From NCBI GenBank assembly GCA_025054835.1, contig JANWZQ010000145.1, positions 1 through 33,958 of the forward strand: a stretch of DNA of 33,958 nucleotides, written 5' to 3'. The position numbers were made by a program, and so were the translations under genes. Under the pieces are notes generated by a model. That model saw nothing but the letters and a program-made list of their open reading frames with translations. It was not told the DNA's origin and searched no databases. Within the stretch, counting starts at the first letter, position 1, and each line of letters starts with the position of its first letter. The DNA comes from Chthonomonadaceae bacterium. GTDB taxonomy: Bacteria; Armatimonadota; Chthonomonadetes; Chthonomonadales; Chthonomonadaceae. Below are positions 2,717 through 22,242 of this stretch, piece after piece.

Positions 2717-4069
2717 TCATGCGGCTCGTTGCATCAATTCCGGTTCTGTGTCGGACTGCAGGCGCTGCTCGGCGAGCGCAGTCAGTTCTGCGGAGTGTTG
2801 CGCCTCGCCCGGGTAAAGCGCCCATCCTGCGTTGATTTTCAGGGGAGCGCGCCCGGCATGCCATCCGCGTTCCTCGAGCCACCCGCTCAGGGTCCGGTGT
2901 ACCCTGCAGGCAACCACACGCACATTCTGGCCGGTATGGGGCAGAATGAGCGCAAAGGTCTCATCCGAAAAACGGGTCACGATGTCCACCCGGCGCACGG
3001 TGCGCTGCAACAACCCGGCGATCCCCCCGACAGCCTCGTCGTACTTGAGCGTTCCATAGGTACGCAGGAACACGGGAAGGCCGTGCAGACCGATCAGTAA
3101 TACCGAGAGCTCAACGCCGAGACGACTGGCCCGGCAGATCTCTTCTTCCAGGCGGGTTTCATAGTAACGGCGATTGTACAGGCGGGTCTGCGGATCCACA
3201 ACGGTATGCTGTTCAATGAAAGCCTGTTGCTCTTCCATACGCCGGCGCATCTGTGCCATTTTCATCTGTGCGTCGCGCAACTCATCCGTGGCTAGAATCT
3301 TCTTGAGCTTCTTCGTGGAGTTGCGCAGAATGTGCGACACGTAATTGCAGGAAATTCCCAGCTGCCGGGCGATCTCCGTCTGGTTGCGGTCCTTGAAGTA
3401 GAACTCCCAGATGACGGTCTGCTCCAGTTCCTTCAGCTTCTGCATGGCGGTTTCCAGCACAATCCGCTCTTCCACCGGTAGCTGGAACGAGACCGCGACG
3501 TCCACCCCCTTTTGCCGCTCCATGTCCACCGCGCCACCGTTGTCTTCATCACTGTCGCCGCCACCATGGATGGAAGTGACCTTGAAGACCTCGCGGGTCA
3601 TCATGATCTCGGAGACGGTCTCCTCTGACATCCCGGTCGTTTGCGCGATTTCCTGGTTGGTGGGTTGCCGCCCGAGTTGCTGGGTGAGCGCCTCGATCGC
3701 ACGCGTTAACCGCTGATTCAGCTCCTGCAACCACGCCGGCTCCTTGATAATCTTGCCGCGATCGCGTAGAAAGTGCTTGATCTGTCCAATGATGAAGTGC
3801 GTGGCGTACGTCGAGAACTTGACGTTCTTGGTCGGGTCATACAGATCGATGGCAGTGATCAGGCCGATGTAGCCTTCCTGTATCAGATCCTCCACAGGCT
3901 CGGCAGAGCCAGAGAATCGCCGGGCCACGCTCTCGACCAGGTTGGTGTACTGCATCACAATGCGGTCGCGTAACTCGGTCTTGCGCGTCTGGCGATAGTC
4001 ACTCAGCAGTTGCAGGACTTCTTCTTCCGCCCGTTTGCGAGATGTGGTGACGGATGCTTCCGTAGACAC
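2717..4069 (-). CDS. SigB/SigF-like RNA polymerase sigma factor fused to a degenerate GGDEF domain
   Basis: The product has 450 residues and a GTG start at 4069, with AGGGA about 8 bases upstream. Residues about 20-105 are sigma-70 region 2, including the DLIQEGYIGL core-binding helix and the FSTYATHFIIGQIKHFLRD promoter-melting segment. Residues about 110-165 are region 3, and about 205-262 are region 4 with a helix-turn-helix (NQTEIARQLGISCNYVSHIL). The style is the group 3 SigB/SigF class. A charged, probably coiled-coil linker (about 263-288) leads to a GGDEF-type domain (about 292-440) that begins with DPQTRLYNRRYYE. The catalytic signature reads SDETF (368-372) instead of GGDEF/GGEEF, and the metal- and substrate-binding segments are changed, so cyclase activity is unlikely. 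An RxxD (Arg359-Asp362) stands exactly where the c-di-GMP I-site is in active cyclases. I infer c-di-GMP-gated transcription. No anti-sigma factor lies nearby. Confidence 0.92.
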   Translation of the reverse strand: MSTEASVTTSRKRAEEEVLQLLSDYRQTRKTELRDRIVMQYTNLVESVARRFSGSAEPVEDLIQEGYIGLITAIDLYDPTKNVKFSTYATHFIIGQIKHFLRDRGKIIKEPAWLQELNQRLTRAIEALTQQLGRQPTNQEIAQTTGMSEETVSEIMMTREVFKVTSIHGGGDSDEDNGGAVDMERQKGVDVAVSFQLPVEERIVLETAMQKLKELEQTVIWEFYFKDRNQTEIARQLGISCNYVSHILRNSTKKLKKILATDELRDAQMKMAQMRRRMEEQQAFIEQHTVVDPQTRLYNRRYYETRLEEEICRASRLGVELSVLLIGLHGLPVFLRTYGTLKYDEAVGGIAGLLQRTVRRVDIVTRFSDETFALILPHTGQNVRVVACRVHRTLSGWLEERGWHAGRAPLKINAGWALYPGEAQHSAELTALAEQRLQSDTEPELMQRAA

Positions 4070-8707: not shown

Positions 8708-9078
8708 ACTTCTCGCTCTGACGACTGTGCGGGGCCAGTGAAGCTGTGCTGTGATCCGCGAACCGGACGCAGTAAAAGATTGTACCTGATCCCCGTATAC
8801 CCTGATTTTCTCGCATGGGCCATTATCGGCACACGTGCACCAGTATCCGCGTGATGTGCGAAGGACATACCGTTGACAGGCATTCGGCGCCCGGTAGCAG
8901 TATACCGGTAGAAGTGCGGTTTTTGGCGCAGCGAGCACCGCAACATTACTGGAAATTGGGTGCAGTGCGGAGTGATGGCACGCAGGGTGCATGGAATGGC
9001 AGCGATGCTCCTGCGGGAGCTTCAAACTCTAGAAAGATCGAAAATACTTTTTGTCTGAGGCAAGGAGCAAAACTGACA
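8708..9078. other. 371-base divergent intergenic region between phosphohexomutase and PEP-CTERM genes
   Basis: This region should hold promoters for both flanking genes. A perfect TTGACA stands at 8873-8878 on the plus strand, but no good -10 sits 16-19 bases downstream. On the minus strand a TATACT is present at 8899-8904 without a recognisable -35. A heptamer CCGGTAG occurs twice in direct orientation (8891-8897 and 8905-8911, 14-base period) around that box and could bind a regulator. No RNA gene was seen. Confidence 0.45.
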
Positions 9079-9798
9079 ATGCGCACCAACATGACACGCT
9101 GGCTGGCTCTTAGCAGTCTGATGCTGATGACGTTGCACGCACAGGTGAACGCCACGACTGTCTATGACACCACGGGTTCCTGGAATGGAATAACTTTCAT
9201 CCATCCATGGGGCTACCCCGATACCGCGACCTACGGGCAGACCTTCTTTGCCCCGGCGGTGGATAACATCCTGGAAGACTTCACCTTTTACATCTATCTG
9301 GACCAGGGGTTCCAGATCCAGTACAAGGCGCACGTCTTTGCGTGGAGCGGTTCCATGTTCGGAGGCGGTGGCGGGCAGGCAACGGGTCTGCCACTCTACT
9401 CCAGCTCCAGCCTGGTACTCAATGGTACCGGTACATTCCAGGCTGTCACTATCAACACGGGGGGAGTTCCGCTCGTGTCCGGCAGTCCCTACGTGGCCCT
9501 GTTCACGATCTCCGATCCGGTCGACTACGCCAACTCTAATGGTTCGTCCCGCTGGGGCTGTCCGCTTACGCACGTCAGCAACGACGGGGGCGGCGGGTTC
9601 GTGTTCTACAACAACGGGAACAACTTCGCGTTGCTGAACTCTTCCATGTGGGATAACTTCGCTGACTTCGGTGATCTGGCCTGGCGGGCTACCTTCCGTT
9701 CCGGGAGTGGTGGTGCGGTTCCCGAGCCCGGCAGCGTCGCGTTGCTGCTGGGGATGGGCGCCTGCGGTCTGGTAGCCATGCGCCGTCGCAAGAAGTAG
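9079..9798 (+). CDS. PEP-CTERM sorting domain protein
   Basis: The product has 239 residues. ATG 9079 is preceded by AAGGAG at 9062-9067; an alternative start is ATG 9091. An N-terminal signal peptide (LALSSLMLMTLHAQVNA) is followed by a Gly/Ser/Thr-rich, all-beta-looking body with many aromatic residues. The C-terminus is a textbook PEP-CTERM tripartite tail: VPEPGSVALL, a hydrophobic helix (LLLGMGACGLVAM) and the basic end RRRKK. Such proteins are exported, then recognised and cleaved by an exosortase, and are usually linked to exopolysaccharide or the cell surface. I recognise no enzymatic motif in the body. A strong hairpin follows at 9845-9875. No exosortase gene is in the window. Confidence 0.9.
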   Translation: MRTNMTRWLALSSLMLMTLHAQVNATTVYDTTGSWNGITFIHPWGYPDTATYGQTFFAPAVDNILEDFTFYIYLDQGFQIQYKAHVFAWSGSMFGGGGGQATGLPLYSSSSLVLNGTGTFQAVTINTGGVPLVSGSPYVALFTISDPVDYANSNGSSRWGCPLTHVSNDGGGGFVFYNNGNNFALLNSSMWDNFADFGDLAWRATFRSGSGGAVPEPGSVALLLGMGACGLVAMRRRKK

Positions 9799-19283: not shown

Positions 19284-19733
19284 TTAACTCAGAAAAAAGC
19301 CCAGTATCTCCTGCTCACGCGCACGCATCTGCCGGGCACCCGCTTCCGTCTCGTCCTCATAGCCGAGCAGATGCAGAATGCCATGCACTGCCAGCAGGGC
19401 TAACTCCTGTTCCAGCGTGACGCCATGCCGTTCGGCCTGTCGTGCCGCGGTCTCCACAGAAATGACCACATCCCCCAGCAGTTCCGGGTGCCCGGGGAGT
19501 GCGGGCAGCACCATGTCTCCCTCCGGGGCGTTCTGTGCGAACGACAGTACATCAGTCGGGCTATCGTAGCCCCGGTAAGTGCAGTTCAGCTCCCGGATCC
19601 GGGCATCGTCCGTTAACAGAATGCTAACCTCGGCGCGGGGTTTCCCTGCCTCCTGCAGCAGGCGACGCGCTGCCTGACGCATCGGGGTTGTCCGTATCGG
19701 ACGTGACTGGGAGTTCTGAACGATCAGGGCCAT
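19284..19733 (-). CDS. ybeY: YbeY endoribonuclease / rRNA maturation factor
   Basis: The product has 149 residues from ATG 19733, with GAGG 6 bases upstream; ATG 19745 is a second option. The family core is present: LNCTYRGYDSPTDVLSFA, GDVVISVETA and the metal site HGILHLLGYEDE. In most YbeY proteins this site reads HGxLHLxGYDHE with three histidine zinc ligands; here the third position is Asp127, while His117 and His121 are kept. YbeY trims the 3' end of 16S rRNA and helps ribosome quality control. The first 110 bases overlap the 3' end of the pgpH-like gene in another frame. The neighbours pgpH and dgkA are the usual ones for this gene. Confidence 0.93.
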   Translation of the reverse strand: MALIVQNSQSRPIRTTPMRQAARRLLQEAGKPRAEVSILLTDDARIRELNCTYRGYDSPTDVLSFAQNAPEGDMVLPALPGHPELLGDVVISVETAARQAERHGVTLEQELALLAVHGILHLLGYEDETEAGARQMRAREQEILGFFLS

Positions 19734-22242
19734 GCAGTGCCTCATTCTCTGTAAACGGAACGAATGCCGCTACCTGTTCCTCGCGCAGATCCAGCCGGCT
19801 CAGCGACAGGGCCGGGAAGCCCTCTGGTTCGTCGAAAGGATACGCGGTCTCGCTCCGGGGTTGTGAACCCGGGCCGGTATCCGCAATGTGCTCCATGTCG
19901 GTATCTGGCTCGCTCACCACTCCGGTTTCTGCCATGCGGCGTTCCTCCTCCGGTGAGAGCGTCATGGCGCGCGCCGTACTGGCAGGTACCTTTTCCGGAC
20001 GCAGATCCGGGCGGACTACCTCCATCGGCATTCCTGTGGCCGTACGGGGTTCTCGTTGCGGATAATCGATGCGTCCGTGCATCATCGCGGTGAGGAAATG
20101 GAGGAACGCGTGAGAGATGTCCCGCACGTCACGGAACGTCAGTCCACACTCATCCAGCTGGCCATCCTCGATCTTGTCGCGCACAATCGAGTGGATCAGG
20201 GCCTCCAACCGTTCCGGGTCTGGCTTGTCCAGGCAGCGCGCAGCTGCCTCCACCGAGTCAGCCAGCATCACGATGGCGTTCTCGCGTGTCTGCGGTTTCG
20301 GGCCGGGGTAGCGGAATCGCTCCTCCAGCCCCGGTGGGATTTCCTCATTGCCCTCGTTGTCCGCCAGGGCCTGATGGTAGAAGTAGCGGATCAGGGTGGT
20401 CCCGTGGTGCTGTGCGATGATGTCACGGATCTCTACGGGCAGGCGATGTTCGCGAGCCATCTCAATACCGTCCCGCACATGCGCCGTGATAATCAGAGCC
20501 GACAGCGAGGGACTGAGGCGCAGGTGCACATTCTCGCGTCGCTGGTTCTCCACGAAAAAGTCGGGGCGTTTCATCTTGCCGATGTCGTGGTAGTAGCCGC
20601 CTACCCGGCAGAGCAGGGCGTCTGCCCCGATCGCCTGTGCTGCCGCCTCAGCCAGCGCGCCCACCATCATGCTGTGTGCGTAAGTCCCCGGTGCTACCGC
20701 GCACAGCTGCTTTAACAGAGGCCGATCGGTTGCCCCCAGTTCCAGCAGGGTCGCATGCGTCAGAATACCGAAGGGGCGTTCCAGCATCAGCACGCCAAAC
20801 CAGAACAGGAAGATGGCGAACACACCGGCGCACATGGCCCAGAGCGCACCCATCCAGATTTCCTGACGCGTCTGCCCCAGCAACATGCCCAGCAGGAGTG
20901 CCAGCGCAGTATTGGTTGCCGCCAGCGCAGCCGTGGTACCCAGCAGGTTGATGCGTGAGCGCACGCAGCCGACTGTGGTGATCCCCACTAGACTGCTCAT
21001 CAGCGTCATGACCGTGAACCGGATCTCATGGTTCATGATCAGGCCGGATTGCACCGCCAACAACGCTACAATCAGCACCGCCAGATGCCGGTCGATCAAC
21101 ACCGAGACCAGCATACCGGCCGCCGCCACGCTCATCATTCCCAGGTAGCCCAGTTGCCCGTTGGAGAAGGAGAGGCCGAGCATGGTCGCGCCGATTTTCA
21201 GGCCGAAGACACCCAGCAGGCTGATCACGGCCAGCAGCCACAGTCGGCGTGTATCTCTGTAGAGGGACGGCATGGAGCGGGAGATGTAGTACGCAACAAA
21301 CATCACCATGGCGGCAGCGAGCATACACACTGCCGCCCCTGTGGTCAGCTCCAGGCGCGGGTTCTGCAGGCCCAGTGCGGTGAATTTGTCGATATGCTCA
21401 CGCGTGACAAGCTCCCCTTCCGCGATGATGCGTTCTCCCGGAACGATCGACTCCAGGACCGGGGGCACATCGTTTGCCGCGCGCTGGCGTTCACGCTCGG
21501 TAGCCACCCGGTTCAGGATCCGGTTGGGGCGCAGGGCCTGATCCGCAATGATGCGAACGATCGCAGCGTCCTCCCCATGTGGCAGGGCGTTCAGCGCAGC
21601 TCCCGCAACCGACTGACGCGTCTGGTTCAGATCCTCGGCAGGGCGGCCGATATCTGCCTGATCCCGGATCTCGCGTTCCATCGCTTCCGTGATCAGACGC
21701 AATGTCACCTGACGCAGGGCATCGAGCGCAGGCTGGGGCATGGTGAGCAAACGTTGCAACTGATCCCGGGTGAAGCGGGCGCGCGTGTTGTCCTGCAGGT
21801 GCGTGATACGGGCCGTCAGGGCAGAATGGCGTGGAGAAGCGGGGAGAGATTTGCGCTCCGTCGCGATCTGATGGAAAATCTCGTCGACGGTGTTACGGGC
21901 CTGCCCGGCTGCTGTGAGGTCGACATCGTAGACAGGACGTGTGCCCTCCATAGCAGCCTTCTGCAATTGCGCCGTCTTAACAGAGTTCACATAGATCACG
22001 CTGCGTGTAGCCCGGATCTCGCGGGGGCTGCGTTCGCCTTCCCGAAGAGAGATCCGATCCGGTGTCAGGTGGATTGACATCAGTGCAGAGAGTGCGGCAA
22101 TCGTGAAGACCACCAGACCCGGTTTGGCCCAGTGAAGAGGGGCAGGCGTCACGGAACGCGGAATGCGAGGGCCGGGGAGGGGACCACGGGATTGCTCACG
22201 CCTTTTCGCAGGTCGCAGCAGCGTTTTCAGGAGTCTCATCAT
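19624..22242 (-). CDS. PgpH-like 7TM-HD domain phosphohydrolase (cyclic-di-AMP phosphodiesterase type)
   Basis: The product has 872 residues; two adjacent ATG codons (22242, 22239) open it and the ribosome site is weak. A first membrane helix (about 38-60) precedes an extracytoplasmic 7TMR-HDED region (about 70-300). A block of about seven helices (about 305-490) and a cytoplasmic HD domain follow. The HD pair is His552-Asp553 in GGYYHDIGKMKRPDFF, with further metal-site histidines in ITAHVRDG and IAQHHGT and an Asp in MLADSVEAA. In Listeria and Bacillus this architecture hydrolyses cyclic di-AMP. A long acidic tail of about 140 residues lacks recognisable domains, and its last part overlaps ybeY. 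A perfect consensus promoter lies at 22428-22456. Confidence 0.93.
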   Translation of the reverse strand: MMRLLKTLLRPAKRREQSRGPLPGPRIPRSVTPAPLHWAKPGLVVFTIAALSALMSIHLTPDRISLREGERSPREIRATRSVIYVNSVKTAQLQKAAMEGTRPVYDVDLTAAGQARNTVDEIFHQIATERKSLPASPRHSALTARITHLQDNTRARFTRDQLQRLLTMPQPALDALRQVTLRLITEAMEREIRDQADIGRPAEDLNQTRQSVAGAALNALPHGEDAAIVRIIADQALRPNRILNRVATERERQRAANDVPPVLESIVPGERIIAEGELVTREHIDKFTALGLQNPRLELTTGAAVCMLAAAMVMFVAYYISRSMPSLYRDTRRLWLLAVISLLGVFGLKIGATMLGLSFSNGQLGYLGMMSVAAAGMLVSVLIDRHLAVLIVALLAVQSGLIMNHEIRFTVMTLMSSLVGITTVGCVRSRINLLGTTAALAATNTALALLLGMLLGQTRQEIWMGALWAMCAGVFAIFLFWFGVLMLERPFGILTHATLLELGATDRPLLKQLCAVAPGTYAHSMMVGALAEAAAQAIGADALLCRVGGYYHDIGKMKRPDFFVENQRRENVHLRLSPSLSALIITAHVRDGIEMAREHRLPVEIRDIIAQHHGTTLIRYFYHQALADNEGNEEIPPGLEERFRYPGPKPQTRENAIVMLADSVEAAARCLDKPDPERLEALIHSIVRDKIEDGQLDECGLTFRDVRDISHAFLHFLTAMMHGRIDYPQREPRTATGMPMEVVRPDLRPEKVPASTARAMTLSPEEERRMAETGVVSEPDTDMEHIADTGPGSQPRSETAYPFDEPEGFPALSLSRLDLREEQVAAFVPFTENEALHGPDRSELPVTSDTDNPDASGSASPAAGGRETPRRG

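Follow-up and report, generated by a model that had tools for sequence, protein, structure and literature searches.

The minus strand of the window (the whole stretch of DNA that was analysed, 33,958 nucleotides) carries, at 2717..4069, a gene for an alternative sigma-70 factor with a GGDEF domain attached by a helix, and the sequence of that domain makes the protein a strong candidate for a direct c-di-GMP receptor. It seems likely, from the residues retained, that the fusion is a one-component sigma factor responsive to c-di-GMP at its I-site. We also lean towards regarding it as one member of a class of one-component sigma factors spread across the phylum, in which promoter selection would be switched by c-di-GMP cross-linking the pseudo-GGDEF domains, with no partner protein. 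The components of such a system, sigma-70 factors and degenerate-GGDEF receptors, are known; their combination appears to be new. Neither a sigma-GGDEF fusion nor a sigma factor binding c-di-GMP directly was found in the literature searched (open-licence papers, which makes this weak evidence), and a paper on the Fimbriimonas genome counts the sigma factors and does not mention the fusion. Control of sigma factors by c-di-GMP has so far been known to go through separate proteins such as RsiG. If true, the arrangement proposed here would be the shortest path from a second messenger to a changed RNA polymerase specificity, in a phylum, the Armatimonadota, on whose c-di-GMP signalling the literature searched has next to nothing, and it could become a portable c-di-GMP-controlled sigma switch.

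The gene is an open reading frame of 450 aa with a GTG start, supported by its Pfam domains and its homologues (all features of the protein lie on the minus strand). The first-pass annotation of this DNA had placed sigma-70 regions 2, 3 and 4 and a GGDEF-fold domain in one polypeptide, and Pfam finds all four, each well over its cut-off: region 2 at residues 38-106 (3752..3958; PF04542 Sigma70_r2, E 1.4e-19, with many invariant columns), region 3 at residues 116-176 (3542..3724; PF04539 Sigma70_r3, E 1.5e-13), region 4 at residues 208-257 (3299..3448; PF04545 Sigma70_r4, E 9.9e-14) and a catalytically dead GGDEF domain at residues 290-439 (2753..3202; PF00990, E 4.1e-21). The protein belongs to the sigma-70 family, scoring 102.6 bits against the TIGR02937 cut-off of 42.9. 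By profile its closest subfamily is SigB/SigF/SigG (TIGR02980, 190.8 bits), of which it is not a member, the curated cut-off being 234.35 bits. A scan of 50 loci for a regulon promoter of SigB-like consensus gave scattered sites and no pattern.

In an AlphaFold2 model the last helix of sigma region 4 continues as a single unbroken helix (residues 241-288, 3206..3349) that forms the linker and leads into a GGDEF domain predicted with a pLDDT of about 97; at a pTM of 0.47, the placement of the sigma part relative to the GGDEF domain in this model is not reliable. The linker had earlier been described as coiled-coil-like. One helix is indeed what the model gives, but a rigid coiled-coil signal is unlikely, since homologues have linkers of anything from 8 to 48 residues. 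The sigma part of the model matches Staphylococcus aureus SigB, other sigma factors of initiation complexes, and WhiG in its complex with RsiG. The structure prediction suggested in the first-pass annotation gave a GGDEF model whose best structural matches are diguanylate cyclases, including PleD bound to c-di-GMP (Z 20.8; about 152 residues aligned at rmsd 1.9-2.4), residues 285-444 of the fusion superposing on PleD 286-445. When the C-terminal part of the fusion was compared by sequence with the PDB, GGDEF proteins alone came back with strong E-values. A second model, of a Fimbriimonadales homologue, has the identical order of helices and strands, and the GGDEF fold is thus kept in a distant relative.

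Full-length fusions are present in relatives from the same family, the same order and the same phylum. Among 50 named Armatimonadota loci, from Chthonomonadales to Fimbriimonadales plus Armatimonadaceae, 49 hold the full fusion and the fiftieth ends at a contig end; in a search with a family profile (fusion threshold E 1e-86), 140 of the 194 good-quality genomes of the phylum (at least 90% complete, at most 5% contaminated) carry it. The same two-domain architecture, for which a phylum-wide search had been proposed, is therefore widespread, and its recurrence in so many loci and genomes means that it is not a chance feature of one open reading frame. Genomes under the threshold have best matches of 1e-30 to 1e-79, and the two inspected (L131 and L138) are sigma factors without the fusion. 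L131 (genome G053, which has two GGDEF matches) is a homologous sigma factor in a frame from about 2810 that has no GGDEF domain; it is possibly an unfused ancestor or a secondary loss. On plasmids and viral contigs only sigma matches were seen and not the two-domain fusion, the viral scan having used sigma-region patterns by which divergent fusions would be missed. A scan of all GTDB species used patterns from this single sequence and reached close relatives only.

To follow the GGDEF domain through the family, parsimony changes were scored for each of its columns on a phylogeny built from the sigma sequence alone (69 tips: 64 non-redundant homologues and five divergent members; 19.5 substitutions per site). 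The signature of the domain is the degenerate SDETF (residues 368-372, 2954..2968) in place of GG[D/E]EF, exactly where it had been placed before and aligning gap-free to the GGEEF of PleD. In the alignment G327 (3089..3091) stands where the catalytic metal aspartate D327 would be, a position that is D in 40/40 canonical GGDEF domains of the phylum and E, D, K, R or others in the fusion family. The canonical domains likewise keep K332, N335, D344 and E371 in 40/40 each. The set D327/N335/D344/E371 is intact in 0/69 homologues, which agrees with the earlier statement that metal and substrate residues are altered, and GG[D/E]EF occurs in 0/69, so the homologues with an intact GGDEF that would have spoken against a sensor are absent from this set. 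Active-site columns change 14-39 times on the tree (median of all columns, 26). Judged by these residues, the catalytic site has been lost from the GGDEF domain of the fusion family.

The I-site presents the reverse picture. The first-pass annotation had noted an Arg359-x-x-Asp362 at the spacing of the inhibitory site of PleD-type cyclases; this primary RxxD, R359-R-V-D362 (2984..2995), is at the exact position, aligns gap-free to PleD R359xxD362 and is kept in 68/69 homologues (R359 in 68/69, D362 in 69/69). Two I-site residues missed at that stage are also present: the secondary arginine R313 (3131..3133; PleD R313), found in 69/69 homologues with no change on the tree, and the third primary residue, R389 (2903..2905; PleD R390), with one change. 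Together the four residues correspond to the I-site of PleD, in which R313 acts from the partner domain (PMC7288161), and all four occur in 67/69 homologues. In the 64 non-redundant homologues the only invariant GGDEF columns are R306, R313, R359 and D362, with R389 in 63. Tree changes at R313/R359/D362/R389 are 0/1/0/1, ranking these columns 1, 5, 2 and 6 of 147; the chance that four given columns all fall within the best six is 8e-7 if columns are exchangeable, which they are not, because canonical domains also conserve some I-site residues. The 40 canonical domains have R313 in 18/40, R359 in 37/40, D362 in 35/40 and R389 in 25/40. As they keep the active site in 40/40 and R313 and R389 poorly, the fusion family inverts the usual constraint, and its full four-residue I-site is under strong purifying selection. 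R359 and D362 are common in canonical domains too, so that part of their conservation could be structural. The domain shares the GGDEF fold, the inactive A-site and the intact I-site with degenerate-GGDEF c-di-GMP receptors of the PopA/PelD kind, for which it is a candidate.

Departures from the full I-site are few: homologue L133 has R359Q within an eroded GGDEF domain, and two reduced genomes (G152 and G153) have lost R389. The GGDEF part is eroded in both L133 and L134 (genomes G034 and G048), though both genomes are GGDEF-rich, and L134 keeps all four I-site residues despite this erosion. Other columns are also restricted in the fusion family (columns 306, 309 and 360, in the 2990-3154 region of the window): R306 and E309 are nearly invariant, E309 being present in only 8/40 canonical domains, and 62/64 homologues have K or R at position 360. 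None of them is a known I-site contact; perhaps they add to the ligand site, or to a contact with sigma, in a way peculiar to this family.

The distribution of the fusion follows that of other GGDEF proteins. When GGDEF matches besides the fusion itself are counted in the 194 good genomes, the fusion is found in 136 of the 158 with three or more and in 4 of the 36 with fewer (Fisher p 6e-18, inflated by counting related genomes as independent). Joint absences recur inside families f1, f3, f8, f14, f15 and f19, and in genus g31 three near-complete genomes without GGDEF proteins are also without the fusion, which ten relatives with 8-12 others carry. There are counter-examples, as five g31 genomes with 4-11 GGDEF proteins and two g23 genomes with 8-9 lack the fusion; 22 good genomes lack it despite three or more other GGDEF proteins, though some of these absences may be assembly gaps. 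Presence of type IV pili was ruled out as a confounder, pilT being found in 194/194 good genomes. The co-occurrence is independent support for c-di-GMP sensing and, with the RxxD kept in nearly all homologues and an intact GG[D/E]EF in none, it favours the earlier suggestion that the sensor is built into the sigma factor. The two reduced genomes, of 1.5 Mb, each have a single canonical GGEEF protein and a single sigma-GGDEF, the latter keeping R313, R359 and D362, and this pair may be most of what remains of their c-di-GMP circuit. The window's own genome has 11 canonical GGDEF and 4 EAL domains. It also encodes a CBS-CBS-GGDEF-like protein (L100, G000:C79:19338-19802), with CBS domains assigned by eye and a weak domain score though the motif reads GGDEF.

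The genetic context of the fusion gene points to type IV pili. At 24 of the 45 loci having an upstream gene, the immediate upstream neighbour is a co-oriented pilC (PF00482), as a rule no more than 100 bases away, and tblastn places pilC next to the sigma-GGDEF gene in further families. In many lineages the fusion gene closes a pilQ-pilB-pilT-pilC type IV pilus cluster; the order is pilT-pilC-sigma in Fimbriimonadales, and in Armatimonadaceae the pil genes are upstream on the opposite strand. The fullest cluster (L087) comprises a secretin, PilB with an MshEN domain, PilT, PilC and the sigma-GGDEF; its PilB-type ATPase with MshEN (L087:1787-3514) is encoded in the ancestral cluster beside the fusion gene. 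MshEN is the c-di-GMP-binding N-terminal domain of MshE (PMC7288161), so that one cluster encodes two candidate c-di-GMP receptors. The gene in the window is not adjacent to pilus genes, the link having been lost here and in most Chthonomonadales; genome disorganisation has been reported for Chthonomonas (PMC4959169). The ancestral position at the end of the pilus cluster suggests that pili and surface life are bound up with the regulon of the sigma factor or with the expression of the sigma gene itself; c-di-GMP would then be connected with type IV pilus genes through transcription. Elsewhere in the window, 19624-22242 (minus strand) encodes a 7TMR-HDED plus 7TM-HD protein, the architecture of the c-di-AMP phosphodiesterase PgpH, and 8815-9798 (plus strand) a secreted-type protein with a PEP-CTERM sorting motif at its C-terminus.

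At high c-di-GMP, an intercalated c-di-GMP dimer would bind one GGDEF domain through RxxD and R389 and another through R313, and two sigma chains would become cross-linked as in product-inhibited PleD or DgcR. In DgcR a c-di-GMP dimer cross-links two domains, with the R390 equivalent too far away to contribute (PMC8041772). Cross-linking could reposition or occlude the sigma domains, thereby switching RNA polymerase entry or promoter binding. The earlier idea that dimerisation of the GGDEF domain gates promoter binding fits the kept R313, the residue that cross-links from the partner domain. By analogy we mildly favour a polarity in which c-di-GMP would hold the sigma factor inactive, with release at low c-di-GMP. 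Three considerations point this way: a sigma factor works on RNA polymerase as a single chain, cyclases are inhibited when cross-linked, and RsiG carrying c-di-GMP sequesters WhiG (PMC13232838). An intramolecular contact between GGDEF and sigma domains is also plausible, given that the inactive GGDEF domain of RmdB contacts a related sigma factor (PMC13232838). The reverse polarity, a version of the same explanation in which c-di-GMP binding would activate sigma (for example by relief of GGDEF autoinhibition or by placing two sigma chains on the promoter), strikes us as less likely. It would agree with the clustering with pilus genes, including the MshEN PilB, if activation occurs at high c-di-GMP, and in some ECF sigma factors a C-terminal extension has both inhibiting and activating roles. 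Against it, cross-linked GGDEF dimers are the inhibited state of diguanylate cyclases (PMC8041772), and the sole sigma factor known to be controlled by c-di-GMP is held inactive (PMC13232838).

Conservation by itself does not name the ligand, and the I-site could have been kept because another nucleotide, or a partner protein touching that face, uses it; the sigma factor would then answer to this ligand or partner instead of c-di-GMP. The titles of solved PleD structures include complexes with (p)ppGpp plus c-di-GMP, and the GGDEF domain of RmdB binds sigma WhiG directly as a protein surface (PMC13232838). We find this improbable, as all four kept residues are c-di-GMP contacts in PleD, including the one from the partner domain, and as the fusion gene is lost along with GGDEF proteins in several families. 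That the domain serves merely for dimerisation or stability, or is a decayed remnant with no ligand, might be argued from the decayed catalytic site, from a continuous helix that could form a coiled coil and from family member L131, which lacks any GGDEF domain; such a scaffold or remnant would not keep four charged surface residues near-invariant amid divergence, nor does it sit well with a fold kept in a distant homologue, and we hold it to be quite improbable. The GGDEF fold itself would allow a transcription-linked diguanylate cyclase that is active by itself or in a heterodimer. With SDETF as signature, and with 0/69 homologues retaining the complete set of metal, GTP and guanine residues, an active cyclase is rejected on sequence and this strongly disfavoured reading is scarcely credible.

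The sigma factor responsive to c-di-GMP that we propose resembles several known systems in part. As in the RsiG-sigma WhiG pair of Streptomyces, a c-di-GMP dimer would control an alternative sigma factor belonging to the FliA/SigF side of the family, WhiG being held inactive by c-di-GMP-bound RsiG (PMC13232838). There, however, the ligand lies between sigma and a separate coiled-coil anti-sigma factor, whereas the candidate sensor here is a GGDEF I-site within the sigma polypeptide itself. The RsiG motif ExxxSxxRxxxQxxxD (PMC7288161) is present in 0/69 fusion proteins, and RsiG-type binding in the linker is accordingly rejected. RmdB, a GGDEF-EAL protein, also has a catalytically inactive GGDEF domain that contacts sigma WhiG (PMC13232838), but it is a separate protein that displaces RsiG, is not fused and has no known I-site action. 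The SigB/SigF/SigG sigma factors with RsbW-like anti-sigma factors are nearest by profile; the fusion differs in scoring under the family cut-off, in its C-terminal GGDEF domain and in having weak RsbW-like matches in its genome. A standard RsbW is not evident in that genome, where only weak HATPase matches (frames of 337-809 aa) were found, which fits, without proving, self-contained control of the sigma factor. PleD, WspR and DgcR share the same I-site residues and the same fold (Z about 20); they are active cyclases, whereas the fusion keeps the regulatory site only and couples it to sigma. PopA and PelD likewise combine a dead active site with a preserved I-site and act as c-di-GMP receptors (PMC12564702); they work in proteolysis targeting and in polysaccharide export, and neither is a sigma factor.
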